The notes under the pieces are model-generated. The model saw only the letters and a list, made by a program, of their open reading frames with translations, was not told the origin of the DNA and did not search any database. 64,000 bases of DNA from Tractidigestivibacter scatoligenes (GTDB lineage: Bacteria; Actinomycetota; Coriobacteriia; Coriobacteriales; Atopobiaceae), in assembly GCF_001494635.1 (NCBI RefSeq), contig NZ_LOJF01000010.1, forward strand, positions 248,001-312,000, given 5' to 3'. This document shows, piece after piece, positions 21,115 through 33,748 of the stretch. A program made the position numbers and the translations under genes. Positions within the stretch are counted from its first letter, which is position 1. Every line of letters starts with the position of its first letter.

Positions 21115-21145
21115 CGGCGCGCCGGGGCGGGGCGCCGGGCCCCGC

Positions 21146-21212
21146 CACACATTCGGGCGCGAATCTGTATCCCGCGCAGGTCGATACACGTTCGGGCAAC
21201 GAATCTGTATCG
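21146..21212. repeat. Double-palindrome element family B, copy 1
   Basis: A 67-bp unit with two imperfect hairpins, CACATTCG...CGAATCTGTATC and GATACACGTTCG...CGAATCTGTATC, joined by CCGCGCAGGTC. It is one of five copies in the window. Confidence 0.8.
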
Positions 21213-21230
21213 CGAGAGGCCGGGGGCTGC

Positions 21231-21297
21231 CACACATTCGGACACGAATCTGTATCCCGCGCAGGTCGATACACGTTCGGGCAACGAATCTGTATCG
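21231..21297. repeat. Double-palindrome element family B, copy 2
   Basis: Direct repeat of copy 1 at an 85-bp interval, identical at 65 of 67 positions. The two lie between lgt and the second nuclease-like gene. Confidence 0.8.
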
Positions 21298-21640
21298 GCT
21301 GAGGCCATCGCCAGGCTCTTGTCTGTGGCTCTCCCAGAATCTGCGTGTTGAAACCTGCCGCATATGACCGCGACGCGGTGTGCACGCCTAGAACAGCAAA
21401 TCTTTGATGCTCGTTCCCTTCACGTTGTCTTCATATCTCACACGTGCTCTGAACTGGGCATTTCCCGTGGCGATCACGATACGCTGCAAGCGAGGATAAC
21501 TGGAAGCCCGAAAAACGCACCCACGTTTTCCTGCGCAAACCCCGTGTGCTGCAAGTTGGCTGTCTGGCACGTGCAAGAACCCTGTCGGCCTTTCTCGGAA
21601 ACTTGATCGCTCGCCTGGCAAGTGCCCATATGCTTGGGCC
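21298..21640. other. Gap upstream of nuclease-like paralog 2
   Basis: About 340 bases without a supported gene. Short open frames on both strands lack ribosome sites. It presumably holds the promoter of the gene at 21641. Confidence 0.5.
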
Positions 21641-22636: not shown

Positions 22637-22705
22637 CGGATACACATTCAGGGTCCGAACGTGTATCGACCTGCGCGGGATACGGCTTCGGGTGCAAATG
22701 TGTGG
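22637..22705. repeat. Double-palindrome element family B, copy 3 (inverted)
   Basis: Reverse-complement relative of copies 1 and 2, sharing the central GTATCGACCTGCGCGGGATA exactly. It begins 52 bases after the stop of the nuclease-like gene. Confidence 0.75.
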
Positions 22706-22735
22706 CAAGCCCCGGCCCCTCGCCCCGGCCGCTCG

Positions 22736-22803
22736 CGATACAGATTCGGGCCCCGAACGTGTATCGACCTGCACGGGATACGGCTTCGGGTACGAATGTG
22801 TTG
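22736..22803. repeat. Double-palindrome element family B, copy 4 (inverted)
   Basis: Second inverted copy, about 98 bases after copy 3. Its central segment differs from copy 3 by one base (CCTGCACGGG). Confidence 0.75.
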
Positions 22804-22854
22804 CGAGGTCGCTGCGCATTGAGGACTGCGAGCGCTTCTCGTCTATACTTCAGG

Positions 22855-23040
22855 CAACATTCAAACCGAGGGCACGGTTTGGGCAGCTGTGAGGCCTGCA
22901 AATGGATCCCGGTTCTACTCCGGGTCAGCAACCAGAACTGTGCTCAGTCGCGCGCGCCGCGTAATCGTTGGCGCTGCGCCATGAGGCTACCGTCGCCACT
23001 CGACGGCCCTGCCTGCCCTCGAGCTCCCAAGGGAGCACAA
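22855..23040 (+). promoter_or_regulatory. Structured leader of the DUF4430/ECF operon, partly cobalamin-riboswitch-like
   Basis: The 5' leader contains a strong hairpin CAAACCG (22862-22868) with CGGTTTG (22875-22881). After it come GCAGCTGTGAGG...GGATCCCGG and CCGGGTCAGCAACCAG. In order, these recall cobalamin riboswitch pieces: the CCGG stem, the CUGUGAGG...GGA segment and the 3' GUCAGGAnACCUG box. The core GCCACUG and GGGAAGGC boxes are not recognisable, so it is either a divergent variant or another structured RNA. The downstream genes encode transcobalamin-like domains, which supports a link. Confidence 0.35.
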
Positions 23041-23056
23041 GACAGGGAGGCGGGGA

Positions 23057-26000
23057 ATGAAACCCACGGAACCCACAACCATGCCTGTGCGACGGCTGTG
23101 CGACCGCATTCTGGCGGTGACGTTGTCGCTGGTCACGGCGGCGTCGATGGTGCCCACGCGAGCGCTTGCCGAGGCCGCGGCGGAGGCGTCGCCGGCAGCG
23201 ACGGCAGCAGCCGCTTCGGCCGAGGCAAGCGCCTCCGATGCCGCGTCGGTCAGCATCTACTCGACCTACCTCACCACCAGCGCAAGCTCCACGAGCGGTA
23301 CCTATGCCTTTGCCGCCTCGGACACGCTGTGGGCATGGGCGCGCGAGAAGGGCTCCGGCACCCCCATCGACCCCGCCACTCTCACCTACCAGTGGCAGGT
23401 CAGCAGCGATAACTCAACCTGGGAAGACATCCCGGGTGCCACCGCGCAGTCCCTCTCGCTTGCAAGCTACGCCGGTCGCTACGTGCGCTGTACGCTCGCA
23501 ACCGCCGACGTCAGCTCCTCGCGCACGACGCGCAGCCGCAACAAGGTGGCTGCTGCCGGTTCGGTCAACCTCGTGAACGTGTCGCTGAGCAACGCCGGCA
23601 AGCTTGCCCCCGGCAACACCATCACCGCTACAGCAAAGGACGCAAGCGGTGCCGACGCCACCTCCAACGCCAGCGTGACCTGGTCGTGGTACGCCAGCGA
23701 CTCGGCGTATGGCACGGGCGAGAAGATCGCAGGCGCCACAACCTCAACGCTTACCGTGACCTCTGACCTTCTCGGCAAGTACGTCTACGCAAGTGCGGAC
23801 GGCGGCTACGGTGCAACCAAGAGCTTGGCAGCGGGCCCCGTGCAAGAGGCCGGCACCGTCATGCTGTACAAGGTGACGGTCGACGCGTCCGGCTCCGCGA
23901 AGGTTGGCCAGACCCTTACCGCCACGGCCTATACCAGCTCCTACACCCAAGCGTCCTCCACGGACGTCGTTCTCTACCAGTGGCAGTGGGCCGCAAGCAA
24001 GACGACAGATGACTCCGCGTTCACCGACATTTCGGGCGCCACCTCTGCCACCTTTACCGTTCCCGAGCAGACCTCTGACGGCACCTCGCTTCTGGGCACG
24101 TACCTGCGCGTCAAGGCAACAAGCGGCAACTCGGTGGTCTCGACCAGCGCGCCTTCCTACTACGGAACCACCGCGACTGACCCGGTGGGACCCGTTGCGC
24201 TTGCGGGCGCCTACGACGTCTCGAGCGTGAAGCTCTCGTCCTCGGCCACAAACGCGCAGGTAGGGGCAACGCTTACGGCGCAGCCTCAGTACGAGAAGAC
24301 CAGCAGCTGGGGTTCGTACGAGACGGACCTGCCCTCGGACGCCAAGCTCACGTGCACCTGGTACGCGGCCGATGACGCGGCGGGCACCAACGCGCGCGAG
24401 CTCACGCCCGAAGACGGCGCCACCGGCGTCACGCTCAAGCTCTCCTCGCCCCTTGAGGGCAAGTACGTGTGGGCAAGCTGCAGTGCGCTCATGGCGTCTG
24501 CCGAGAGCGAGAAGAGCCAGGTCAAGGCTGCAGGTGCGTACGACCTCCACCACATTGTGCTGTCACCCTCGTCGAGTGCGCTTGTCACCGGCGACACTGT
24601 GAAGGCAGTGGTCTACGCCTCGCAGCTTTCTGGCAGCAACGTGGACGTGACCGGCAATGACGGCGTAAGCCTGCAGTGGTACGTCGCCGACACGCCGTCA
24701 GGTGAGTGGCAGCCGCTTGACGGCTGCACGTCCGCAAGCCTGCAGGTTCCGGAAAGTGCAGCGGGAAAGTACCTCAAGGTTGTGGCAACGAGCGGCACGG
24801 CCACTGTTGAAAGTACCTTTGACCAGGCCGTTGTTGGGGCCAACACGCTCGCGGGTGCCGCCGCGCGCCTCAAGAACGAGAACTGGCGCCCCTCTCTCAC
24901 CTATGGCACCGACACCAACGTGAACGACGTGCTTCTCGCCAAGCTGGCAGACGAGGGCGTGGACACTACGGGGCTCGCCGTGCGCGTGAGCAACGTGTCC
25001 TTCTCGGACGCCGACGCCAACGCTACCGTGGGAATCTCCACCGCAGACGCGGACAACGGTGCCATCACGTACTTCTCGTGCGACACCGATAAGGTCTCTA
25101 GCTGGAACATTTCCTCGCTTCAGACGGTGAGCTCGATTACGTTTACGCTCACCCGCGGAGACGAGACCGTAACCTACACCCCCAACCGCACCTTCCAGGT
25201 GCCTTGGGACGAGAACGCCGCGCGCGCCGTGCTCCAGAAGAAGGCCGATGCCATTACGCTTGGCTTTGCTCAGGGCGACTCCGCGGACTCCGTGACGCAG
25301 GCCTTCACGCTGCCCGCAAGCCTGGGCGGTGCCAGTGCAACGTGGACCGCAAGCGACAGCTCCGTGAGAGTATCCGGAGAGAGCTGGGACAGCACGCTCA
25401 CGGCAACGCCCACGCGCGGCTCTTCTGACACGCCAGTCACCCTTACGGCAACCGTGTCCTTCACGGGCTACGGTATGCCCGAGGTCTCGGTGACCAAAGA
25501 CTTCCCGATTACCGTCAAGGCAGACCCAGAGGCGGTGGCTGCAGCTCAGACCGAGCTTGTGGCTAAGGTCGAGAGCAGCTTCGCCTACGACAAGGTGACC
25601 GCTTTCTCCACCGGTGACGTCATCGACCCCACCGCGGTGACTGGCGATCTGCAGCTTCCCACCACGCGCACGCTTGGCGTGGACGGCAAGTACTACGCCG
25701 TTGCGTATAGCAGCAACGATTCTCTCGTCAGCTTCAATGGGTACCACGCAACGGTTGTGCGCCCGCTTGGCACCGCGCGCACCGTTACCATTACCTGCAC
25801 GGTTACCGACAAGTCAAACCCCGAGATAACCTCATCGAAGTCGCTAGAGTTCACGCTCTCTCCCGTGAGCGAGCAGGAGATTGACGCGGCGGTTTCGCTT
25901 ATGGAGAAGGCCAAGGCGGGGTATGCCCTGGCGCTCCTTGACGGACAAGACGCCAGCAACGTGACAGGTAACCTGCGAAGTTTCCTGGGCGCCTACGAGG

Positions 26001-28783
26001 ACGCATCGGGGAACCTCGCCTGGGCGCGCGACCGCGCCACGCAGTCCGCGCACCCCGGCATTGTGCCGGTTGACCTGCCCGGATACAGCGACATGGGCGG
26101 CATGACCTGGCGCACCTTCAAGTCCAGCCGTCCGGACGTAATCTCCAACGAGCTTCTCGCCTATACCCAGCCCACCGACAACACGCGGGTTACCGTTACC
26201 TCGCGCCTTGCTGACGAGCGCTTCCAGGCCTACTACGAGTTCTACAAGGATGACCCCACGGTAAGCGACCAGCTCAAGGCCAAGCTGGCAAGCCTTGTAG
26301 ACCAGGACGTCTCGGCCACTATTACGGTTACGGGCACCTCGGGCAAGGACGCGCCGGAGCAGGTTACCGCTAGCTGCTCGGTTATTGGCTCCAATGCTGC
26401 TGGCGCCAACGTGAGCTGGGCGCCGGAGACCTCGCTTTCCGTCGAGCCGGGAACCACCGCGGCAGGCCTCACCAAGAAGATCCTTGATGCCAACGGCATC
26501 ACTTACGACAATGGCCTCTACACCTTTACCAAGGACGGCAACTCGCTGGGCTATGACGCCGCAACCGGCAAGTGTTGGCAGCTCTTCATCAACGGCGAGT
26601 CTGCCACGGTGATGGCGTCGAACTACGTCCTCAAAGAGGGCGACCAGGTTGTTTGGTACTACTCCGCCTGGGGAGACTCGCTTCCTGGCCAGGTTACTGG
26701 TTCGGTGAAGGTGATTGGCAAGGACGCCTCGGGTCTGGATCAGGTGTGGGCCGATACCACGTCGCTCACGCTTGTCGAGGGTTCGACGGCGGCGGATCTC
26801 TCGGAGGCGGCGTTTTCTGCGTGCGGCCTCACGCGTGCCTCGTCTACCAGCAGCTGGGGTTACTACCTGAGCACCATCACTTCGCCCGTGGACGGACGTG
26901 TGTTGGGCTGGGATGCCTCGACGGGCGCGTACTGGCACCTGTTTGTAAACGGTAAGGCGTCGCAGGTTGGCGCAAGCAGCGTGAACATTGCCAACGGCGA
27001 CGAGGTCGTCTGGTACTACTGCACGGATTCTGACAGCCTTCCCAAGAGCGATGCGCTGGTAGTGGACCCATCGGCAACGCGCCCCACAAGCCTGAGCGCC
27101 GCTTGGCCTGGCTACAAGGGCACGGACGAGACGGGCGTAGTGCGCGGGCTCGCCACACCAGTGCCCGGCTCAAGCACCTATGCTAGGCTTGACTGGGCGC
27201 GGTCACGCACTACGACCAGCATGTTTGTCAACGCGAGCGACGCGATTGTCGTTAACGGCGACGTCTACGATGCCGCGCAGACGCAGCTCTATCGCCGTGA
27301 CGCGTCCACGGGTGTGGTTCTTGACGAGGCGCGCCTGGCTGCAAGCGTGGACTCCACTGCGCGCCTGCAGTACGCCGACGGTCTCATACTTGTGCCGCTG
27401 CACGGAGGCCGTATCCAGGCGCTCACGGCAGACACGCTGACCACGGTTTGGGTCTCGGCCGCGCTGCCTGCCTCTACCAGTGCGAGTGGCAAGGCCGTTG
27501 ACCAGCAGCTCCTCTCGTCCGTCACCGTGCGTGACGGCAAGGCGTACTTCTCGACCGTGGCACCTGACGGCAGCGATTCCTGCGGAGGCTACGTGGCCTG
27601 CGTGAGCTTGGCTGACGGCAGCCTTGTGTGGTCGCACGAGGGAACGGACGCAGGCTACTACTGGACGGGCGCCGTGCCCACTTCTGCCGGCGTGCTTACC
27701 GCCAACGACGAGGGGCGCGTCTCGCTGTTCGATACCGCTACGGGGGAGGAGCTTTCCTCGGTCGAGCTGGGGACGCGTTGCCGCGCACAGCTGGCAGTGA
27801 GCGGAAATACGGTCTACGCGGTCACGACCGACGGCACGCTGCACGAGCTCTTCCTGGGTTCTGACGGCTCGCTGACGGCAGGCCGCAGCGTGAGGTTCGG
27901 CTCGTACTCCACCTCGTCGCCTGTCATCTGCGACGGGCGAATCTACGTGGGCGGTTCCTCCTCCGCAGACGTGACGCGCGGCGCGCTCTTCGTGATTGAC
28001 CTTGCCTCCATGAGCGTGGTGCACGAGGTACTGGTGCCTGCGACCGCTGTCGAGGGCCAGGTGGGGACCGGTGACGTTAAGAGCGCACCTCTGGTGAGCG
28101 TTGCCCTCGATGGCAACACGTACGTGTACTTCACAAGCAACGGCAAACCTGGCGGCGTGTACGCCTACCGGCTTGGGGACGCCGAGGCCACCACGCTCTA
28201 CCAGCCCGCGAGCGACCTCTGGCAGTACTGCATGAGCTCCATCGCCTGCGACGCAAGCGGCAACCTCTACTATTTCAACGACTCCGGCACCCTCTTCAAG
28301 CTGGACGCGGGCGCAGCCACGGCCGCGCCGGGCGAAAAGGGCCAGGGCGGCGAGAACAACGCTGGCTCTGCTGGCGGCAGGGGCAACGCTGGTACCAACG
28401 GTAACGCAGGTGGTAACACTGCGGGCAGCGCCTTTGGCAACGCCACGTCGACCTCATCCGCAGCGAAGCCGTCAAAGCCTCACGTAACCGTCTCTGGCGG
28501 CAATGCGTCGACTGGCTCCGCGACAGCCGACGCCCTCGCGTCAGAGAACAGCTCGCTTCTCGGCAGCTACTCCTCGGAGGACGTGACCGCCGTCACCTCC
28601 ACGGGGGCCAAGGAACCCGCTGAAACCGGCGAGACTTCTGCAAGCGAGACTTCAGCGAACCAGTCGGGCCTTCCCATCTGGCCCATCATTGGCACCTGCG
28701 TTGGTGCGGCGCTGCTCATCCTGCTGCTTGCCACGCGTCGTCGCCGCGGCGATGACGGAACCGCCGAGGGGAGGCGCGGCTAG
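23057..28783 (+). CDS. Large surface protein with Ig-like repeats, two DUF4430 domains and a PQQ-type propeller
   Basis: The 1908-residue protein has a signal peptide (about 1-36, ending TRALAEA) and a C-terminal membrane anchor (IWPIIGTCVGAALLILLLATRRRR, about 1870-1893) with no LPXTG motif. Residues about 75-600 contain repeated Ig-like modules with the YQWQ/WYAS pattern. Two DUF4430 domains, the fold of the transcobalamin C-terminal domain, are at about 1114-1205 and 1221-1326 (KCWQLFINGES, EGDQVVWYYSAW). A PQQ-type beta-propeller follows (about 1375-1750), then a Gly/Asn/Ser linker. It is the first gene of an ECF locus and likely binds the vitamin or its carrier at the cell surface. GGGAGGCGGGG precedes ATG 23057. 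Confidence 0.8.
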   Translation: MKPTEPTTMPVRRLCDRILAVTLSLVTAASMVPTRALAEAAAEASPAATAAAASAEASASDAASVSIYSTYLTTSASSTSGTYAFAASDTLWAWAREKGSGTPIDPATLTYQWQVSSDNSTWEDIPGATAQSLSLASYAGRYVRCTLATADVSSSRTTRSRNKVAAAGSVNLVNVSLSNAGKLAPGNTITATAKDASGADATSNASVTWSWYASDSAYGTGEKIAGATTSTLTVTSDLLGKYVYASADGGYGATKSLAAGPVQEAGTVMLYKVTVDASGSAKVGQTLTATAYTSSYTQASSTDVVLYQWQWAASKTTDDSAFTDISGATSATFTVPEQTSDGTSLLGTYLRVKATSGNSVVSTSAPSYYGTTATDPVGPVALAGAYDVSSVKLSSSATNAQVGATLTAQPQYEKTSSWGSYETDLPSDAKLTCTWYAADDAAGTNARELTPEDGATGVTLKLSSPLEGKYVWASCSALMASAESEKSQVKAAGAYDLHHIVLSPSSSALVTGDTVKAVVYASQLSGSNVDVTGNDGVSLQWYVADTPSGEWQPLDGCTSASLQVPESAAGKYLKVVATSGTATVESTFDQAVVGANTLAGAAARLKNENWRPSLTYGTDTNVNDVLLAKLADEGVDTTGLAVRVSNVSFSDADANATVGISTADADNGAITYFSCDTDKVSSWNISSLQTVSSITFTLTRGDETVTYTPNRTFQVPWDENAARAVLQKKADAITLGFAQGDSADSVTQAFTLPASLGGASATWTASDSSVRVSGESWDSTLTATPTRGSSDTPVTLTATVSFTGYGMPEVSVTKDFPITVKADPEAVAAAQTELVAKVESSFAYDKVTAFSTGDVIDPTAVTGDLQLPTTRTLGVDGKYYAVAYSSNDSLVSFNGYHATVVRPLGTARTVTITCTVTDKSNPEITSSKSLEFTLSPVSEQEIDAAVSLMEKAKAGYALALLDGQDASNVTGNLRSFLGAYEDASGNLAWARDRATQSAHPGIVPVDLPGYSDMGGMTWRTFKSSRPDVISNELLAYTQPTDNTRVTVTSRLADERFQAYYEFYKDDPTVSDQLKAKLASLVDQDVSATITVTGTSGKDAPEQVTASCSVIGSNAAGANVSWAPETSLSVEPGTTAAGLTKKILDANGITYDNGLYTFTKDGNSLGYDAATGKCWQLFINGESATVMASNYVLKEGDQVVWYYSAWGDSLPGQVTGSVKVIGKDASGLDQVWADTTSLTLVEGSTAADLSEAAFSACGLTRASSTSSWGYYLSTITSPVDGRVLGWDASTGAYWHLFVNGKASQVGASSVNIANGDEVVWYYCTDSDSLPKSDALVVDPSATRPTSLSAAWPGYKGTDETGVVRGLATPVPGSSTYARLDWARSRTTTSMFVNASDAIVVNGDVYDAAQTQLYRRDASTGVVLDEARLAASVDSTARLQYADGLILVPLHGGRIQALTADTLTTVWVSAALPASTSASGKAVDQQLLSSVTVRDGKAYFSTVAPDGSDSCGGYVACVSLADGSLVWSHEGTDAGYYWTGAVPTSAGVLTANDEGRVSLFDTATGEELSSVELGTRCRAQLAVSGNTVYAVTTDGTLHELFLGSDGSLTAGRSVRFGSYSTSSPVICDGRIYVGGSSSADVTRGALFVIDLASMSVVHEVLVPATAVEGQVGTGDVKSAPLVSVALDGNTYVYFTSNGKPGGVYAYRLGDAEATTLYQPASDLWQYCMSSIACDASGNLYYFNDSGTLFKLDAGAATAAPGEKGQGGENNAGSAGGRGNAGTNGNAGGNTAGSAFGNATSTSSAAKPSKPHVTVSGGNASTGSATADALASENSSLLGSYSSEDVTAVTSTGAKEPAETGETSASETSANQSGLPIWPIIGTCVGAALLILLLATRRRRGDDGTAEGRRG

Positions 28784-29956
28784 ATGTCAGACAACGGCAT
28801 GAAACTTGACAGTCAGCAGCCAGCAAACGGCAAGCACACTGCCAGGGTGATTCTCGCGATTCTCGCCGCTGCGCTCATTGCCTTCTGCGTTTGGGCGATG
28901 TCCGTCTACGCGCAGGGCGGCGACCCGCTTGCCTGGGCAACCGGGTCTGCTGCATTCCAGACCACGACCGAGGAGGGCCAGCCCGCCGACCAGGACGCCG
29001 CTGTGTCGCAGGAGGCATCTCAGGCGCTCAAACTCACCACGGACGACGTCTACTCCGCTCTTGCGACGCTCCAGTTTGACGGCACAGACGTCTCGCTCGA
29101 GAAGGGCGTTGCCCGTGTGGTCCTCTCCTCAGATGGCATCTGGGTTGAGGAGGCAAGCTCCGCTGATGCGCCGGACATGGTGCTTGTCTGCGCTCAGCGC
29201 TCGGCTGCCCTTGCGGCCTGGGCCTCTGAGCAGGGTGTGGGTATCCCAGGTGCCACCTGGATTTGCGAGGACGGCACCGGCGCCGTGCGCATGGCCATAA
29301 CCATGCCCACGGCCGGTGCCCCTACCACGGGAGACTTGGCAACGCTCCTCTCGGCAGCAACTGGCTACGGAATCTCCGGCGACGCGTACGCCAAGCTGAA
29401 CGCAGACAACATTTCCCAGTTTGCTGGCGTGGCTCCGACACTTCCGGACGGCACGGCCGTCTCGATCAATGCCAACGTCACGTCTGCTGGCGAGAACCTC
29501 TCCGCTACAGATGTCGCAACGCGTCAGAAGGACGTCAGCTCCGGGACAGTTGGCGTCACTGGCACTGGCACGTCCAGCGGCGTCGGGAGTTCCTCGTCGG
29601 CAACCGGCGCGCAATCGGGAAGCTCGTCCGCGCAGTCCACGCAGAACGCCAAGGTTCGCGTCACCGTGACCATCGACGCCCGTGCTGACGGAGGATCGTC
29701 CAGCTCGTACACCGTCTCGCTCGACCCTGGAGCCACCGCATACGACGCCCTGGTGGCAACCGGTGCAGGCGTCAACGCGCGCAGCACGGCCATGGGCATC
29801 TACGTTGCTGCCATCAACGGATATGCCGAGAAGGACCAGGGCGGGGAGAGCGGCTGGAAGTACGCGGTTAACGGGAGCTACCCCAACTACTCGGCGGGCT
29901 CCTACACCCTCGCGGATGGCGATGCGGTGACGTGGGTCTACGTCACGTCGGCATAG
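28784..29956 (+). CDS. Membrane-anchored DUF4430 protein of the ECF locus
   Basis: The 390-residue protein starts immediately after the stop of the large surface protein (ATG 28784, RBS GAGGGGAGG). An N-terminal membrane helix (RVILAILAAALIAFCVWAMSVYA, about 20-42) precedes a unique domain of about 180 residues and a Ser/Thr/Gly-rich linker. The last 100 residues form a DUF4430 domain (ATAYDALVATGAGVN...GWKYAVNGSYPNYSAGSYTLADGDAVTWVYV). DUF4430 is related to the cobalamin-contacting domain of animal intrinsic factor and transcobalamin. The protein may hand substrate from the surface protein to the ECF transporter. Confidence 0.8.
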   Translation: MSDNGMKLDSQQPANGKHTARVILAILAAALIAFCVWAMSVYAQGGDPLAWATGSAAFQTTTEEGQPADQDAAVSQEASQALKLTTDDVYSALATLQFDGTDVSLEKGVARVVLSSDGIWVEEASSADAPDMVLVCAQRSAALAAWASEQGVGIPGATWICEDGTGAVRMAITMPTAGAPTTGDLATLLSAATGYGISGDAYAKLNADNISQFAGVAPTLPDGTAVSINANVTSAGENLSATDVATRQKDVSSGTVGVTGTGTSSGVGSSSSATGAQSGSSSAQSTQNAKVRVTVTIDARADGGSSSSYTVSLDPGATAYDALVATGAGVNARSTAMGIYVAAINGYAEKDQGGESGWKYAVNGSYPNYSAGSYTLADGDAVTWVYVTSA

Positions 29957-29972
29957 CGTCAGAGATTAGAAA

Positions 29973-30866
29973 GTGCGTCATACTCGTCACATGCTGACCA
30001 TGCGAGACACACACACCGCCTTCGACACCTGCCACCCGGCTGTGCCGGCGACGTACTTTGCCGCAACCATCCTCATCGCCATCTTCGCGATGCAGCCGGT
30101 CTGCGTGGGCATCTCGCTGGCCGGTGCGCTTGTGTTCTCGCTTGCCGCGCGTGGATGGCGACGCACGCTCGGCGGCCTTCGCTGGCAGCTGCCCATGGTG
30201 GCCCTTGTCGCCGTGGCCAACCCTCTCTTCTCGGCGTCTGGCTCCACGCTGGTGGCGCAGCTTGGGCCTATGGCTATCTACCAGGAGAGCATTGCCTACG
30301 GCGCCTGTGCTGGAGCGCTTCTGGTGGCGGTGGTCCTGTGGTTTGAGGATGCCGCCTGCGTGCTCACGCAGGACCGTCTGCTCCAGCTGGGTGCCCGCGT
30401 TCTTCCAACGGTGACGCTTGTGACCTCGATGGCAGCGCAGCTGGTGCCCCAGCTCATGCAGCGCTCGCAGACCGTGCGGGCAGCCACGCTCGCTACCACG
30501 GCGGCCGCACCGGAAGGCTCGCGCGATCGCGGCGTGCGCGTGGCCGACCAGCTCATGAGTTGGTCGATGGAGGATTCCATCGAGCGCTCCGACGCCATGC
30601 GCGCCCGCGGGTGGGGTGCCACGGACCGCCGCAGCTGCTATCTGCCGGATTCCTTCCGGAACTCCGACGCGTTTGCGCTTGCGGGTATTGTCCTGCTTGC
30701 CGCCGTGAGTGCATTTCTCGTCTACGCGGCTTGCTCGCAGTGGCACTTCTATCCCACCATGCCGCGCCTGGTTGCCTGGTGGGGCTATGCGCCGCATGCC
30801 GTGCTGGCATTCCTTCCCACGGCGCTAGACCTGGGACAACGTCTTCGATGGGGGAGGGTTGCATGA
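29973..30866 (+). CDS. ecfT: Energy-coupling factor transporter transmembrane protein EcfT
   Basis: The 297-residue protein has about six hydrophobic segments and two cytoplasmic coupling motifs with the EcfT Ala-Arg-Gly pattern (DAMRARGWG near 210). EcfT couples ATP hydrolysis by the A subunits to the S component. GTG 29973 is the longest start; ATG 29991 and ATG 30000 are alternatives and none has a clear Shine-Dalgarno. The stop overlaps the start of the ATPase gene (ATGA), which shows tight coupling. Confidence 0.82.
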   Translation: MRHTRHMLTMRDTHTAFDTCHPAVPATYFAATILIAIFAMQPVCVGISLAGALVFSLAARGWRRTLGGLRWQLPMVALVAVANPLFSASGSTLVAQLGPMAIYQESIAYGACAGALLVAVVLWFEDAACVLTQDRLLQLGARVLPTVTLVTSMAAQLVPQLMQRSQTVRAATLATTAAAPEGSRDRGVRVADQLMSWSMEDSIERSDAMRARGWGATDRRSCYLPDSFRNSDAFALAGIVLLAAVSAFLVYAACSQWHFYPTMPRLVAWWGYAPHAVLAFLPTALDLGQRLRWGRVA

Positions 30867-32290
30867 ATGCGCTCGAGCTTAGGGACGTGAGTTTCTCCTA
30901 CCCCGCAACAGACACAGAGCCCAGCCCCGCGCCGGTTCTTGAGCATGTCTCGCTCGTTGTGCCCGAGGGAGCGTTTGCGCTGCTCACGGGTAGTACCGGC
31001 TCTGGTAAGTCGACGCTTCTGCGCCTGGCCAAGCCGGAGGTGACGCCGGCGGGCGCACTTGTCGGCCACGTGCTCGCGTTTGGCAAGGATGTGCGCACGC
31101 TCTCGCCGGTGGAGTCCGCGCAGACCGTGGGGCTCGTCTTCCAGAGCCCCGACAGCCAGATTGTGTGCGACACTGTGTGGCATGAGATGGCATTTGGCCT
31201 GGAGAACCTGGGGACGCCGGTGTCCGAGATGCGTCGCCGCGTGGCTGAAACCTGCATGTTCTTTGGCATGGAGCCCTGGTTTCGCCGTCAGACGGCAAGC
31301 CTCTCCGGCGGTCAGCGCCAGATGCTCGCACTTGCTGCAACGCTCGCCATGCGGCCGCGCCTGCTGCTTCTGGACGAGCCCACTTCGATGCTCGATCCGG
31401 TAGCCGAGAAGGACTTCCTAGCCATGCTTTTCCGCGCAAACCGCGAGCTGGGAGTCACCGTTGTTGTGGCAACGCATGCGCCCGAGCCCATGCGCGACGT
31501 GGCTACCTGTGCCTTTCGTGTGGAGCAAGGCCGCGTGCGCGAGCTCTCGCTTAACGAGGCCATTGCTGCCTGCGCCTTTAGACCGGAGGTAGTGAAACGC
31601 GCCACCGGCAAGCCAACTGTCAGCCACTCGAAACCCGCACTCTCGCTGCGCGATACGTGGTTTCGTTACGAGCGCAATTCCGACTGGGTCCTGCGCGGTC
31701 TGGACCTCGCGGCGCCCGAAGGCGAGGTTACGGCAATCGTCGGCGGCAATGGCTCGGGCAAGACGACCCTCTTGCAGCTGGCGTGCGGCGTTCTTGCACC
31801 GCAGCGCGGACGTCTTTCTCGTCCCCATGCGGCGTCGCAGGCGTACCTGCCGCAGAGCCCGCGTGCCATTCTCTCTGCGCAGACCGTACGCGAGGAGCTC
31901 ATGCTCTGGTCAAAGGGCGCGGGCTACGGCGAGGCCCAGGTCACGGCAATGATGGAGCGCCTGGGGCTCACGGGCGTGGCGGCGAGAAACCCGCTCGACC
32001 TCTCCGGTGGCCAGCAGCAGCTCGTGGCCTTTGCAAAGCTGCTGCTCACAAGGCCAAGCCTGCTCATTTTGGACGAGCCTACCAAGGGCCTCGACGCCGC
32101 AGCTCGCACGAAGCTTGCCCGTCTCGTGCAGGAGCTGCGCCAGGAGGGGAGGAGCGTCCTTCTCGCCACGCACGACCTTGCGTTTGTCTCTGCGGTGGCA
32201 GACTCCGTGTCGCTGCTCTTTGACGGGACCGTGACGTGCACAGAAGGACCCGACGAGTTTCTCGCCGGGTCTTGGCTCTACCATGCGTGA
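30863..32290 (+). CDS. Energy-coupling factor ATPase with two ABC domains
   Basis: The 475-residue protein fuses two ABC modules. The first has Walker A GSTGSGKST (about 38-46), Q-loop FQSPDSQIV, LSGGQRQM and LLLLDEPTS. The second has GGNGSGKTT (about 293-301), LPQSPRAIL, LSGGQQQL and LLILDEPTKG. FQSPDSQIV and similar Q-loops are typical of EcfA. It starts at ATG 30863, overlapping the ecfT stop by four bases, with GGGGAGGG just upstream. A longer in-frame start inside ecfT is not needed. A single polypeptide with both A domains replaces the usual EcfA1/EcfA2 pair. Confidence 0.9.
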   Translation: MNALELRDVSFSYPATDTEPSPAPVLEHVSLVVPEGAFALLTGSTGSGKSTLLRLAKPEVTPAGALVGHVLAFGKDVRTLSPVESAQTVGLVFQSPDSQIVCDTVWHEMAFGLENLGTPVSEMRRRVAETCMFFGMEPWFRRQTASLSGGQRQMLALAATLAMRPRLLLLDEPTSMLDPVAEKDFLAMLFRANRELGVTVVVATHAPEPMRDVATCAFRVEQGRVRELSLNEAIAACAFRPEVVKRATGKPTVSHSKPALSLRDTWFRYERNSDWVLRGLDLAAPEGEVTAIVGGNGSGKTTLLQLACGVLAPQRGRLSRPHAASQAYLPQSPRAILSAQTVREELMLWSKGAGYGEAQVTAMMERLGLTGVAARNPLDLSGGQQQLVAFAKLLLTRPSLLILDEPTKGLDAAARTKLARLVQELRQEGRSVLLATHDLAFVSAVADSVSLLFDGTVTCTEGPDEFLAGSWLYHA

Positions 32291-32345
32291 GTTGTGGCGC
32301 GCCGCCGCGTGAACGTCGTGCCGTCAGCGCGCCGTCGGCTGCTGG

Positions 32346-32786
32346 CTAGAAGGTGAGGAATGGCTCCTCCATGCCCTCTTCTTCGAGGTCATCTTCCGAA
32401 AGGTCGTCAAGGTCCTCCATGTCCTCGAGCTCGATCTCGTCGCCGTCATCCTCGCCCCAGCCGTATGCGCTGGCGGCAAGCTCGTCCACGCTCGTGTCGG
32501 GAAGTGCGCTCGTCACCGAGCACAGGCCGTCAATGGCGGGCACGATCTTCTGCCACTGCGTGATCACCGGGTCCTGCGGCACGCCCTCCAGCTCAACAAG
32601 GGAGTCGAGGTAGATCTCGCTTGCGCCCTCAAGCAGGTCAGACTCGGCGCGCACGCTCGCGAACTTTGACGCAAACTTCTCGAGGGCCTCGTCCGCCGAG
32701 TCCGCCTCAACCACGCACGGCATGAGGCAGTAGTTGTTTGCCTGGTCCTTGTCATCGTTGTAGCTAAAGTTTCCAACGTAGAGCAT
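32346..32786 (-). CDS. Acidic hypothetical protein
   Basis: The 146-residue protein is not recognised. It begins MLYVGNFSYNDDKDQANNYCLMPCVVEADS at ATG 32786, after GGAGGAGGCCCC. A compact N-terminal domain of about 100 residues carries no membrane segment. It is followed by a very acidic tail (GEDDGDEIELEDMEDLDDLSEDDLEEE). It lies on the opposite strand between the ECF ATPase and the S component, so it interrupts that operon and is probably not part of it. Confidence 0.65.
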   Translation of the reverse strand: MLYVGNFSYNDDKDQANNYCLMPCVVEADSADEALEKFASKFASVRAESDLLEGASEIYLDSLVELEGVPQDPVITQWQKIVPAIDGLCSVTSALPDTSVDELAASAYGWGEDDGDEIELEDMEDLDDLSEDDLEEEGMEEPFLTF

Positions 32787-32927
32787 GGGGCCTCCTCCGG
32801 TCGATGGGTGCGGCACATGCCCATCTTAGGCAATTCTGCGCAGGTTGGTGGTTGTTTCCTGTAAGCGGGCGGTACGCTGTGGCATAGAGTGTTGCGTGCG
32901 GGTTTTCTGACGAGAAAGGCAAGGGCC

Positions 32928-33635
32928 ATGGCAACGAGCAGCGCGAGCGCAACCTGCCAACGTGTCATCGCTGCCCTCGAGGTGCCGTCGATAGTCGCCG
33001 TTCCCGCGGTTCTCGTTGCCTGTGCCGTGAACGGCGTGCAGGCGGCCGCGGGGCTCACGCTTCTGGTGGTGGTTCTCTGCGTGGGGCTCTTCATGGCCAG
33101 CTTCGAGGCCTCACGGCCTGCGCTTCGACAGGTCATGCCCACTGCCACGCTCGCGGCGCTGGCGGCGGCCGGGCGAATCCTCTTTGCCCCCATTCCCGAC
33201 GTCAAGCCCGTCTCGGCGATTGCCATTGTCGTGGGTGCCACGCTGGGCAGGAGCGAGGGCTTCATGGTGGGTGCGCTGGCTGCGCTGTTGTCGAACTTCT
33301 TCTTTGGCCAGGGCGTGTGGACGCCCTGGCAGATGTATGCGTGGGGGCTTGTCGGCTACCTCGCGGGCGTGCTGGGCGAGCGCGGTCTTCTTAGGCGCCG
33401 CGGCGCGTTGCTCGCGTACGGGTTTCTCTCAGCACTCTTTTACGGGGCGATTCTCAACGGCTGGTACGTGATTGGATACGTGGAGCCCATCACCTGGTCT
33501 ACCGTGGCCGCAGCGTATGCGGCTGGGCTTCCGTGGGACTGCCTGCACGGAGCCGCCACGGTGGGCTTCCTCGCGGCGATATGGGTGCCGTGGGGCGCGC
33601 GCATCCGACACGCCGTCGCGAAGTACGGCCTGTAG
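32928..33635 (+). CDS. ECF transporter S component (predicted corrinoid/vitamin specificity)
   Basis: The 235-residue protein has about six hydrophobic segments. It shows the pattern of S components seen next to DUF4430 genes: AAGRILFAPIPDVKPVSAIAIVVG, LGRSEGFMVGALAALLSNFFFGQGVWTPWQM and WGLVGYLAG. ATG 32928 has GAGAAAGGCAAGG upstream. It would bind substrate in the membrane and pair with the EcfT and two-domain EcfA encoded just upstream. The substrate is inferred as cobalamin or a precursor from the DUF4430 partners. Other vitamins remain possible. Confidence 0.75.
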   Translation: MATSSASATCQRVIAALEVPSIVAVPAVLVACAVNGVQAAAGLTLLVVVLCVGLFMASFEASRPALRQVMPTATLAALAAAGRILFAPIPDVKPVSAIAIVVGATLGRSEGFMVGALAALLSNFFFGQGVWTPWQMYAWGLVGYLAGVLGERGLLRRRGALLAYGFLSALFYGAILNGWYVIGYVEPITWSTVAAAYAAGLPWDCLHGAATVGFLAAIWVPWGARIRHAVAKYGL

Positions 33636-33678
33636 CTGCAAGTCCCGGCCTACGGCTGGAACTTTCGGGGACTGCCCC

Positions 33679-33748
33679 CGATACACGTTCGGAGCCGAAT
33701 CTGTGACCCGCCCAGGTCGATACACATTCGAAGAACGAATGTGTATCG
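33679..33748. repeat. Double-palindrome element family B, copy 5 (solo)
   Basis: Same orientation as copies 1 and 2. Its second half is a perfect 13-bp inverted repeat, CGATACACATTCG (33718-33730) and CGAATGTGTATCG (33736-33748), with a 5-base loop. This is the least degenerate copy. No nuclease-like gene is adjacent. Confidence 0.8.

Follow-up and report, generated by a model that had tools for sequence, protein, structure and literature searches.

A putative corrinoid acquisition operon combining membrane-anchored DUF4430 proteins with a CbrT-like ECF transporter in Coriobacteriia

The window analyzed here, a 64,000-nt stretch of a 2.47-Mb Tractidigestivibacter scatoligenes genome assembled in 16 contigs, contains forward-strand genes for a very large surface protein (BIG), a smaller DUF4430 protein (D2), the ECF transporter subunits EcfT and EcfA, and an S component (Table 1). 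BIG and D2 abut, 16 nt separate D2 from ecfT, and the likely EcfA start (ATG, 30863) falls 4 nt within ecfT; given this abutting and overlapping spacing, the four appear to form a single transcription unit. The S component, whose start is ambiguous (GTG 32889 or ATG 32928), begins 0.6 kb past EcfA, beyond a single opposite-strand gene of 156 aa. At loci L013, L015, L016 and L019, S directly follows EcfA and the homologue of the 156-aa gene is missing, which argues that S is part of the system. The order BIG-D2-EcfT-EcfA-S also occurs in Olsenella, Tractidigestivibacter, Adlercreutzia and other Coriobacteriia, and its recurrence across families of the class places the arrangement far beyond chance. 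The initial annotation had described a 1908-residue surface protein with two DUF4430 domains, a second DUF4430 protein, EcfT and a two-domain EcfA as fused in an operon, with an S component following. This inventory holds up: PF14478 is found in two stretches of the BIG reading frame (Pfam, E = 2.9e-21) and in D2 (1e-15), and the EcfT and EcfA assignments are borne out by the structure-chain and domain matches given below. The operon is indeed tight, but "fused" is loose wording for genes that are separate and abutting, and the S component is present downstream with the minus-strand gene lying in between.

Table 1. Genes and protein features of the locus, in positions of the window
Feature	Position	Strand	Basis or remark
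BIG, 1908-aa surface protein	23057..28783	+	ORF; PF14478, aBig_2 and PQQ_2 in Pfam
BIG, aBig_2 Ig-like domain (better of two stretches)	25238..25522	+	Pfam, residues 728-822
BIG, DUF4430 domain 1	26450..26665	+	Pfam, 45.3 bits
BIG, DUF4430 domain 2 (matched part)	26864..27019	+	45.2 bits; conserved in relatives
BIG, beta-propeller, BamB/PQQ type	27278..28186	+	Pfam; model pLDDT 87.6; BamB, TMt up to 0.78
BIG, C-terminal transmembrane anchor and RRRR (approximate)	28676..28753	+	Read from translation
D2, 390 aa, one DUF4430	28784..29956	+	Pfam
D2, DUF4430 domain	29729..29944	+	PF14478; fold match to human transcobalamin beta domain
EcfT, divergent transmembrane coupling subunit	29973..30866	+	Profile match to PDB EcfT chains
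EcfA, single chain with two ATPase domains	30863..32290	+	TIGR04520; ABC_tran twice
Intervening 156-aa gene, between EcfA and S	32346..32816	-	ORF
CbrT-like S component	32889..33635	+	PDB sequence and profile searches

The translation of BIG begins with a signal-like sequence, and no LPXTG motif was seen on its inspection. D2 consists of an N-terminal membrane segment, a variable middle and a C-terminal DUF4430 domain, the last being the only part kept throughout its relatives. Given the C-terminal anchor of BIG and the N-terminal membrane segment of D2, both proteins should face outward on the membrane. In Foldseek, the best matches to the BIG propeller are BamB and, lower down, YxaL, with BtuG outside the 50 best; this search of a BIG fragment was dominated by BamB-like propellers and is uninformative on the DUF4430 domains of the protein, which are assigned by Pfam match. 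A sequence search of BIG against the PDB returned chance matches only, and the length and N-terminal part of the protein differ between relatives.

The fold comparison for DUF4430 was made on the D2 domain, for which the model (pLDDT 89) has the human transcobalamin beta domain as its best match (TM 0.82, 8.6e-7). The 19 matches at E<=0.001 are exclusively to transcobalamin, haptocorrin, intrinsic factor and the bacterial structure 3u7z, and other beta-grasp folds appear from 3e-3, the first of them with TM 0.54 and all with TM 0.57 or less. The initial annotation had likened DUF4430 to the C-terminal domain of transcobalamin and intrinsic factor and had proposed structure prediction as a check, and the D2 model supports the likeness. 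By sequence, D2 alone found chance matches only in the PDB, and a DUF4430 profile found 3u7z weakly, with transcobalamin absent from its matches; the relationship between DUF4430 and transcobalamin is visible by fold and shared Pfam family only. The beta domain of human transcobalamin has been crystallized by itself with cyanocobalamin and with cobinamide (PMC5599065).

EcfT has no significant match in Pfam, which misses the EcfT family of this class in 20 of the 20 members tested, yet a 20-member profile retrieves EcfT chains exclusively from the PDB (1.6e-12), indicating a gap in the family models. EcfA matches TIGR04520 in NCBIfam (1.7e-85) and contains two ABC_tran domains, and the locus carries both the EcfT and the ATPase module of a CbrT-type ECF transporter. 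Searched as a single sequence against all PDB chains, S matches CbrT (6fnp) at 3e-9, the rest being noise, and with a 15-member S profile the CbrT match reaches 6e-13, followed by 4hzu_S as the second-ranked S component at 0.012. S is homologous to CbrT over nearly its whole length and is closer to it in sequence than to the remaining S components with known structures; its nearest relatives, from Olsenella and Tractidigestivibacter, are 86-95% identical to it. ECF-CbrT binds and imports both cobalamin and cobinamide (PMC5997447). The initial annotation had drawn its corrinoid reading of the locus solely from the DUF4430 likeness and the gene layout, and held that a closest characterized S component with another proven substrate would speak against it. 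The outcome is the opposite, the closest being CbrT, and the same reading draws further support from the DUF4430 fold and from the riboswitches and metH linkage described next.

AdoCbl-II riboswitches (Rfam) precede the operon in L068, L071 and L072. Across the class, AdoCbl-II matches occur in 97 of 298 genomes (28 above Rfam's own cut-off, the others weaker), and in at least 74 of these 97, a lower bound taken from the DUF4430 and S genes listed, a same-strand DUF4430 gene (within 12 kb) or S gene (within 15 kb) lies downstream of the riboswitch; chance placement would account for about 1% by a rough estimate. The riboswitch stands ahead of BIG-type genes in L016, L068, L071 and L118-L120, and 25 aligned matches share the near-invariant core GCTRTRCCAGYAACCGT. 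The Collinsella-like genome G142 has riboswitch-BIG-D2 at one locus (L117) and EcfT-EcfA-S, without DUF4430, at another (L062), which suggests that B12 regulates the DUF4430 proteins independently of the transporter. No cobalamin riboswitch was found upstream of the operon in the window: Rfam finds none in the window at gathering or at E<=10, a class-specific model (R1), which has only 8 base pairs and is thus mainly a sequence profile, finds none either, and the core motif is absent upstream of the operon with 3 mismatches allowed. Nor was the riboswitch found in the genome as a whole or in any Atopobiaceae locus searched.

In three genera, metH lies within, beside or one gene away from the operon. 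L060 reads metH-ecfT-ecfA-S, with the DUF4430 genes missing; metH and S stand tail-to-tail in L058 and L077, and yebC alone separates them in L059 and L076. MetH of L060 and L058 has homocysteine, pterin and two B12-binding domains, and the genome containing the window encodes a MetH of the same make-up. Among the listed genomes of the window's family, MetH is present in 56 of the 59 that bear S and in 11 of the 28 that do not (Fisher tests on these counts ignore phylogeny), and DUF4430 is present in 58 of the 59. S-bearing genomes lacking a MetH match at 1e-60 number three in family f1 and about thirty in f2. A search limited to the PduO type found no adenosyltransferase in the genome, consistent with MetH-only use of cobalamin, and MetE gave partial, weak matches only. 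As a separate observation, MetH at L004 and L060 (10556-13081) stops after the B12-binding domain, the reactivation domain being unmatched. L005 was considered as a further B12-binding protein; its match is weak, it reads as a radical-SAM-type protein, and it was left uncounted. Pfam identified no BtuC/FecCD permease or BtuF-type binding protein among the locus proteins scanned, and two clear FecCD permeases are encoded outside the locus, so the genome may contain another corrinoid importer.

The genes for BIG, D2, EcfT, EcfA and S very probably constitute an operon for the acquisition of corrinoid, either vitamin B12 or cobinamide, with putative binding and transport functions. In such a system, membrane-anchored, extracellular BIG and D2 would bind corrinoid outside the cell through their DUF4430 domains, BIG acting as an extended catcher and D2 sitting closer to the membrane. 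Gene order and anchoring suggest that the ligand could be handed from BIG to D2 and on to S. The CbrT-like S component, together with its own EcfT and the fused EcfA, would then import the corrinoid with ATP, and the cobalamin-dependent methionine synthase MetH may be its main user in the organism.

The substrate might instead be another micronutrient, such as a thiamine precursor, queuosine, heme or riboflavin, to which the DUF4430 proteins would also bind. Substrates do vary between relatives within S families, the top Pfam label for S is ECF-ribofla_trS (1.2e-7), and at L070 thiamine genes and a TPP riboswitch neighbor the ECF genes, which have no adjacent DUF4430 gene. We take the label to be a broad family name, however, and no S structure besides CbrT matches apart from the weak hit to 4hzu_S; moreover, the operon is tracked by cobalamin riboswitches and metH, and the thiamine genes of L070 are on the opposite strand to its ECF genes. 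We regard this alternative as very unlikely. L070 belongs to a 1.4-Mb genome (G137) in which DUF4430 genes and B12 riboswitch matches occur elsewhere.

The other two alternatives accept the corrinoid and differ on the role of the surface proteins. BtuG2 of Bacteroides, also a propeller protein, takes B12 from intrinsic factor (PMC6143338), and by analogy BIG and D2 might sense corrinoids, or receive host B12 bound to its carriers, instead of supplying the transporter in general. We regard this as very unlikely, as the operon structure with its abutting genes and the riboswitch control in relatives fit uptake, and no sensory output domain was seen by Pfam. It is also unlikely that S, EcfT and EcfA import corrinoids while BIG and D2 serve as adhesins or scaffolding, their DUF4430 domains binding no ligand. 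The Ig-like region, propeller and anchor give BIG an adhesin-like build, the variation of its length and N-terminal part between relatives would suit such a role, and the transporter is kept in L060 without DUF4430 genes; but the riboswitch at L117 stands before BIG-D2 apart from the transporter, DUF4430 accompanies S in all but one of the S-bearing genomes of the family, and the DUF4430 fold matches a ligand-binding domain.

As a corrinoid acquisition operon, the locus can be compared with several known systems. ECF-CbrT of Lactobacillus delbrueckii (6FNP) has a homologous S component and shares the ECF module, whereas the operon described here adds two large extracellular DUF4430 proteins, and its EcfA is fused and its EcfT divergent. 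DUF4430 corresponds to the C-terminal beta domain of transcobalamin, intrinsic factor and haptocorrin, but the alpha domain of these carriers (Cobalamin_bind) was not found by Pfam in BIG or D2; in contrast to the animal proteins, BIG and D2 are membrane-anchored, and BIG contains tandem DUF4430 copies, a propeller and Ig-like parts. BtuG of Bacteroides is a beta-propeller surface protein that captures B12 ahead of import (PMC6143338). A surface protein with a beta-propeller occurs in the BtuG/BtuB system and at this locus, but the BIG propeller is of the BamB/PQQ type and an ECF importer replaces the BtuB route. We consider it possible, while leaning against it, that the tandem DUF4430 domains and propeller of BIG are the counterpart of a two-lobed animal B12 carrier, and that BIG, D2 and S form a relay passing corrinoids from the surface to the membrane, comparable to Gram-positive heme relays. 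If so, the ligand-binding beta domain of animal carriers would be common to bacterial B12 uptake machinery.

For Lacticaseibacillus rhamnosus, a published annotation lists an "additional lipoprotein component of putative cobalamin ECF transporter", and the same work locates a gene for a DUF4430 protein adjacent to rtpR (PMC9963975). That lipoprotein is 14 kDa, as opposed to the 1908-aa multidomain protein and second anchored protein encoded here. The wording of the annotation is that of the SEED/RAST annotation system, and rtpR is the gene for B12-dependent ribonucleotide reductase; since an annotation of this type exists, the general idea is not new. The available open-literature passages on DUF4430 do not directly treat bacterial B12 uptake. 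The new elements are the size and domain architecture of BIG and D2 and the evidence taken together; neither ECF-CbrT nor the animal carriers combine the parts seen at this locus. To our knowledge, the capture of B12 outside the membrane by Gram-positive gut bacteria is poorly known, whereas BtuG of Bacteroides is well studied. If the proposed function is correct, DUF4430, a domain with no function assigned so far that is present in 191 of 298 Coriobacteriia genomes, would be corrinoid-binding in bacteria as in animals, and the operon would provide a testable molecular basis for B12 competition by Olsenella, Collinsella and Eggerthella relatives.

Two other features of the locus deserve mention. 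An intergenic repeat of about 85 bp lies on both sides of the operon (21127-21299, 22639-22807 and 33663-33747). The repeat, which contains the hairpin GATACACRTTCG...CGAATSTGTATC, has 28 matches genome-wide and looks like a dispersed REP-like element; because the repeats are spread across the whole genome, we dropped them as candidate regulatory elements of the operon. The 156-aa minus-strand protein encoded between EcfA and S had no match in Pfam and NCBIfam scans. It is 96-99% identical among Olsenella-type relatives, exceeding the conservation of its neighbors, and a homologue of its gene adjoins lgt in L059 and L076.
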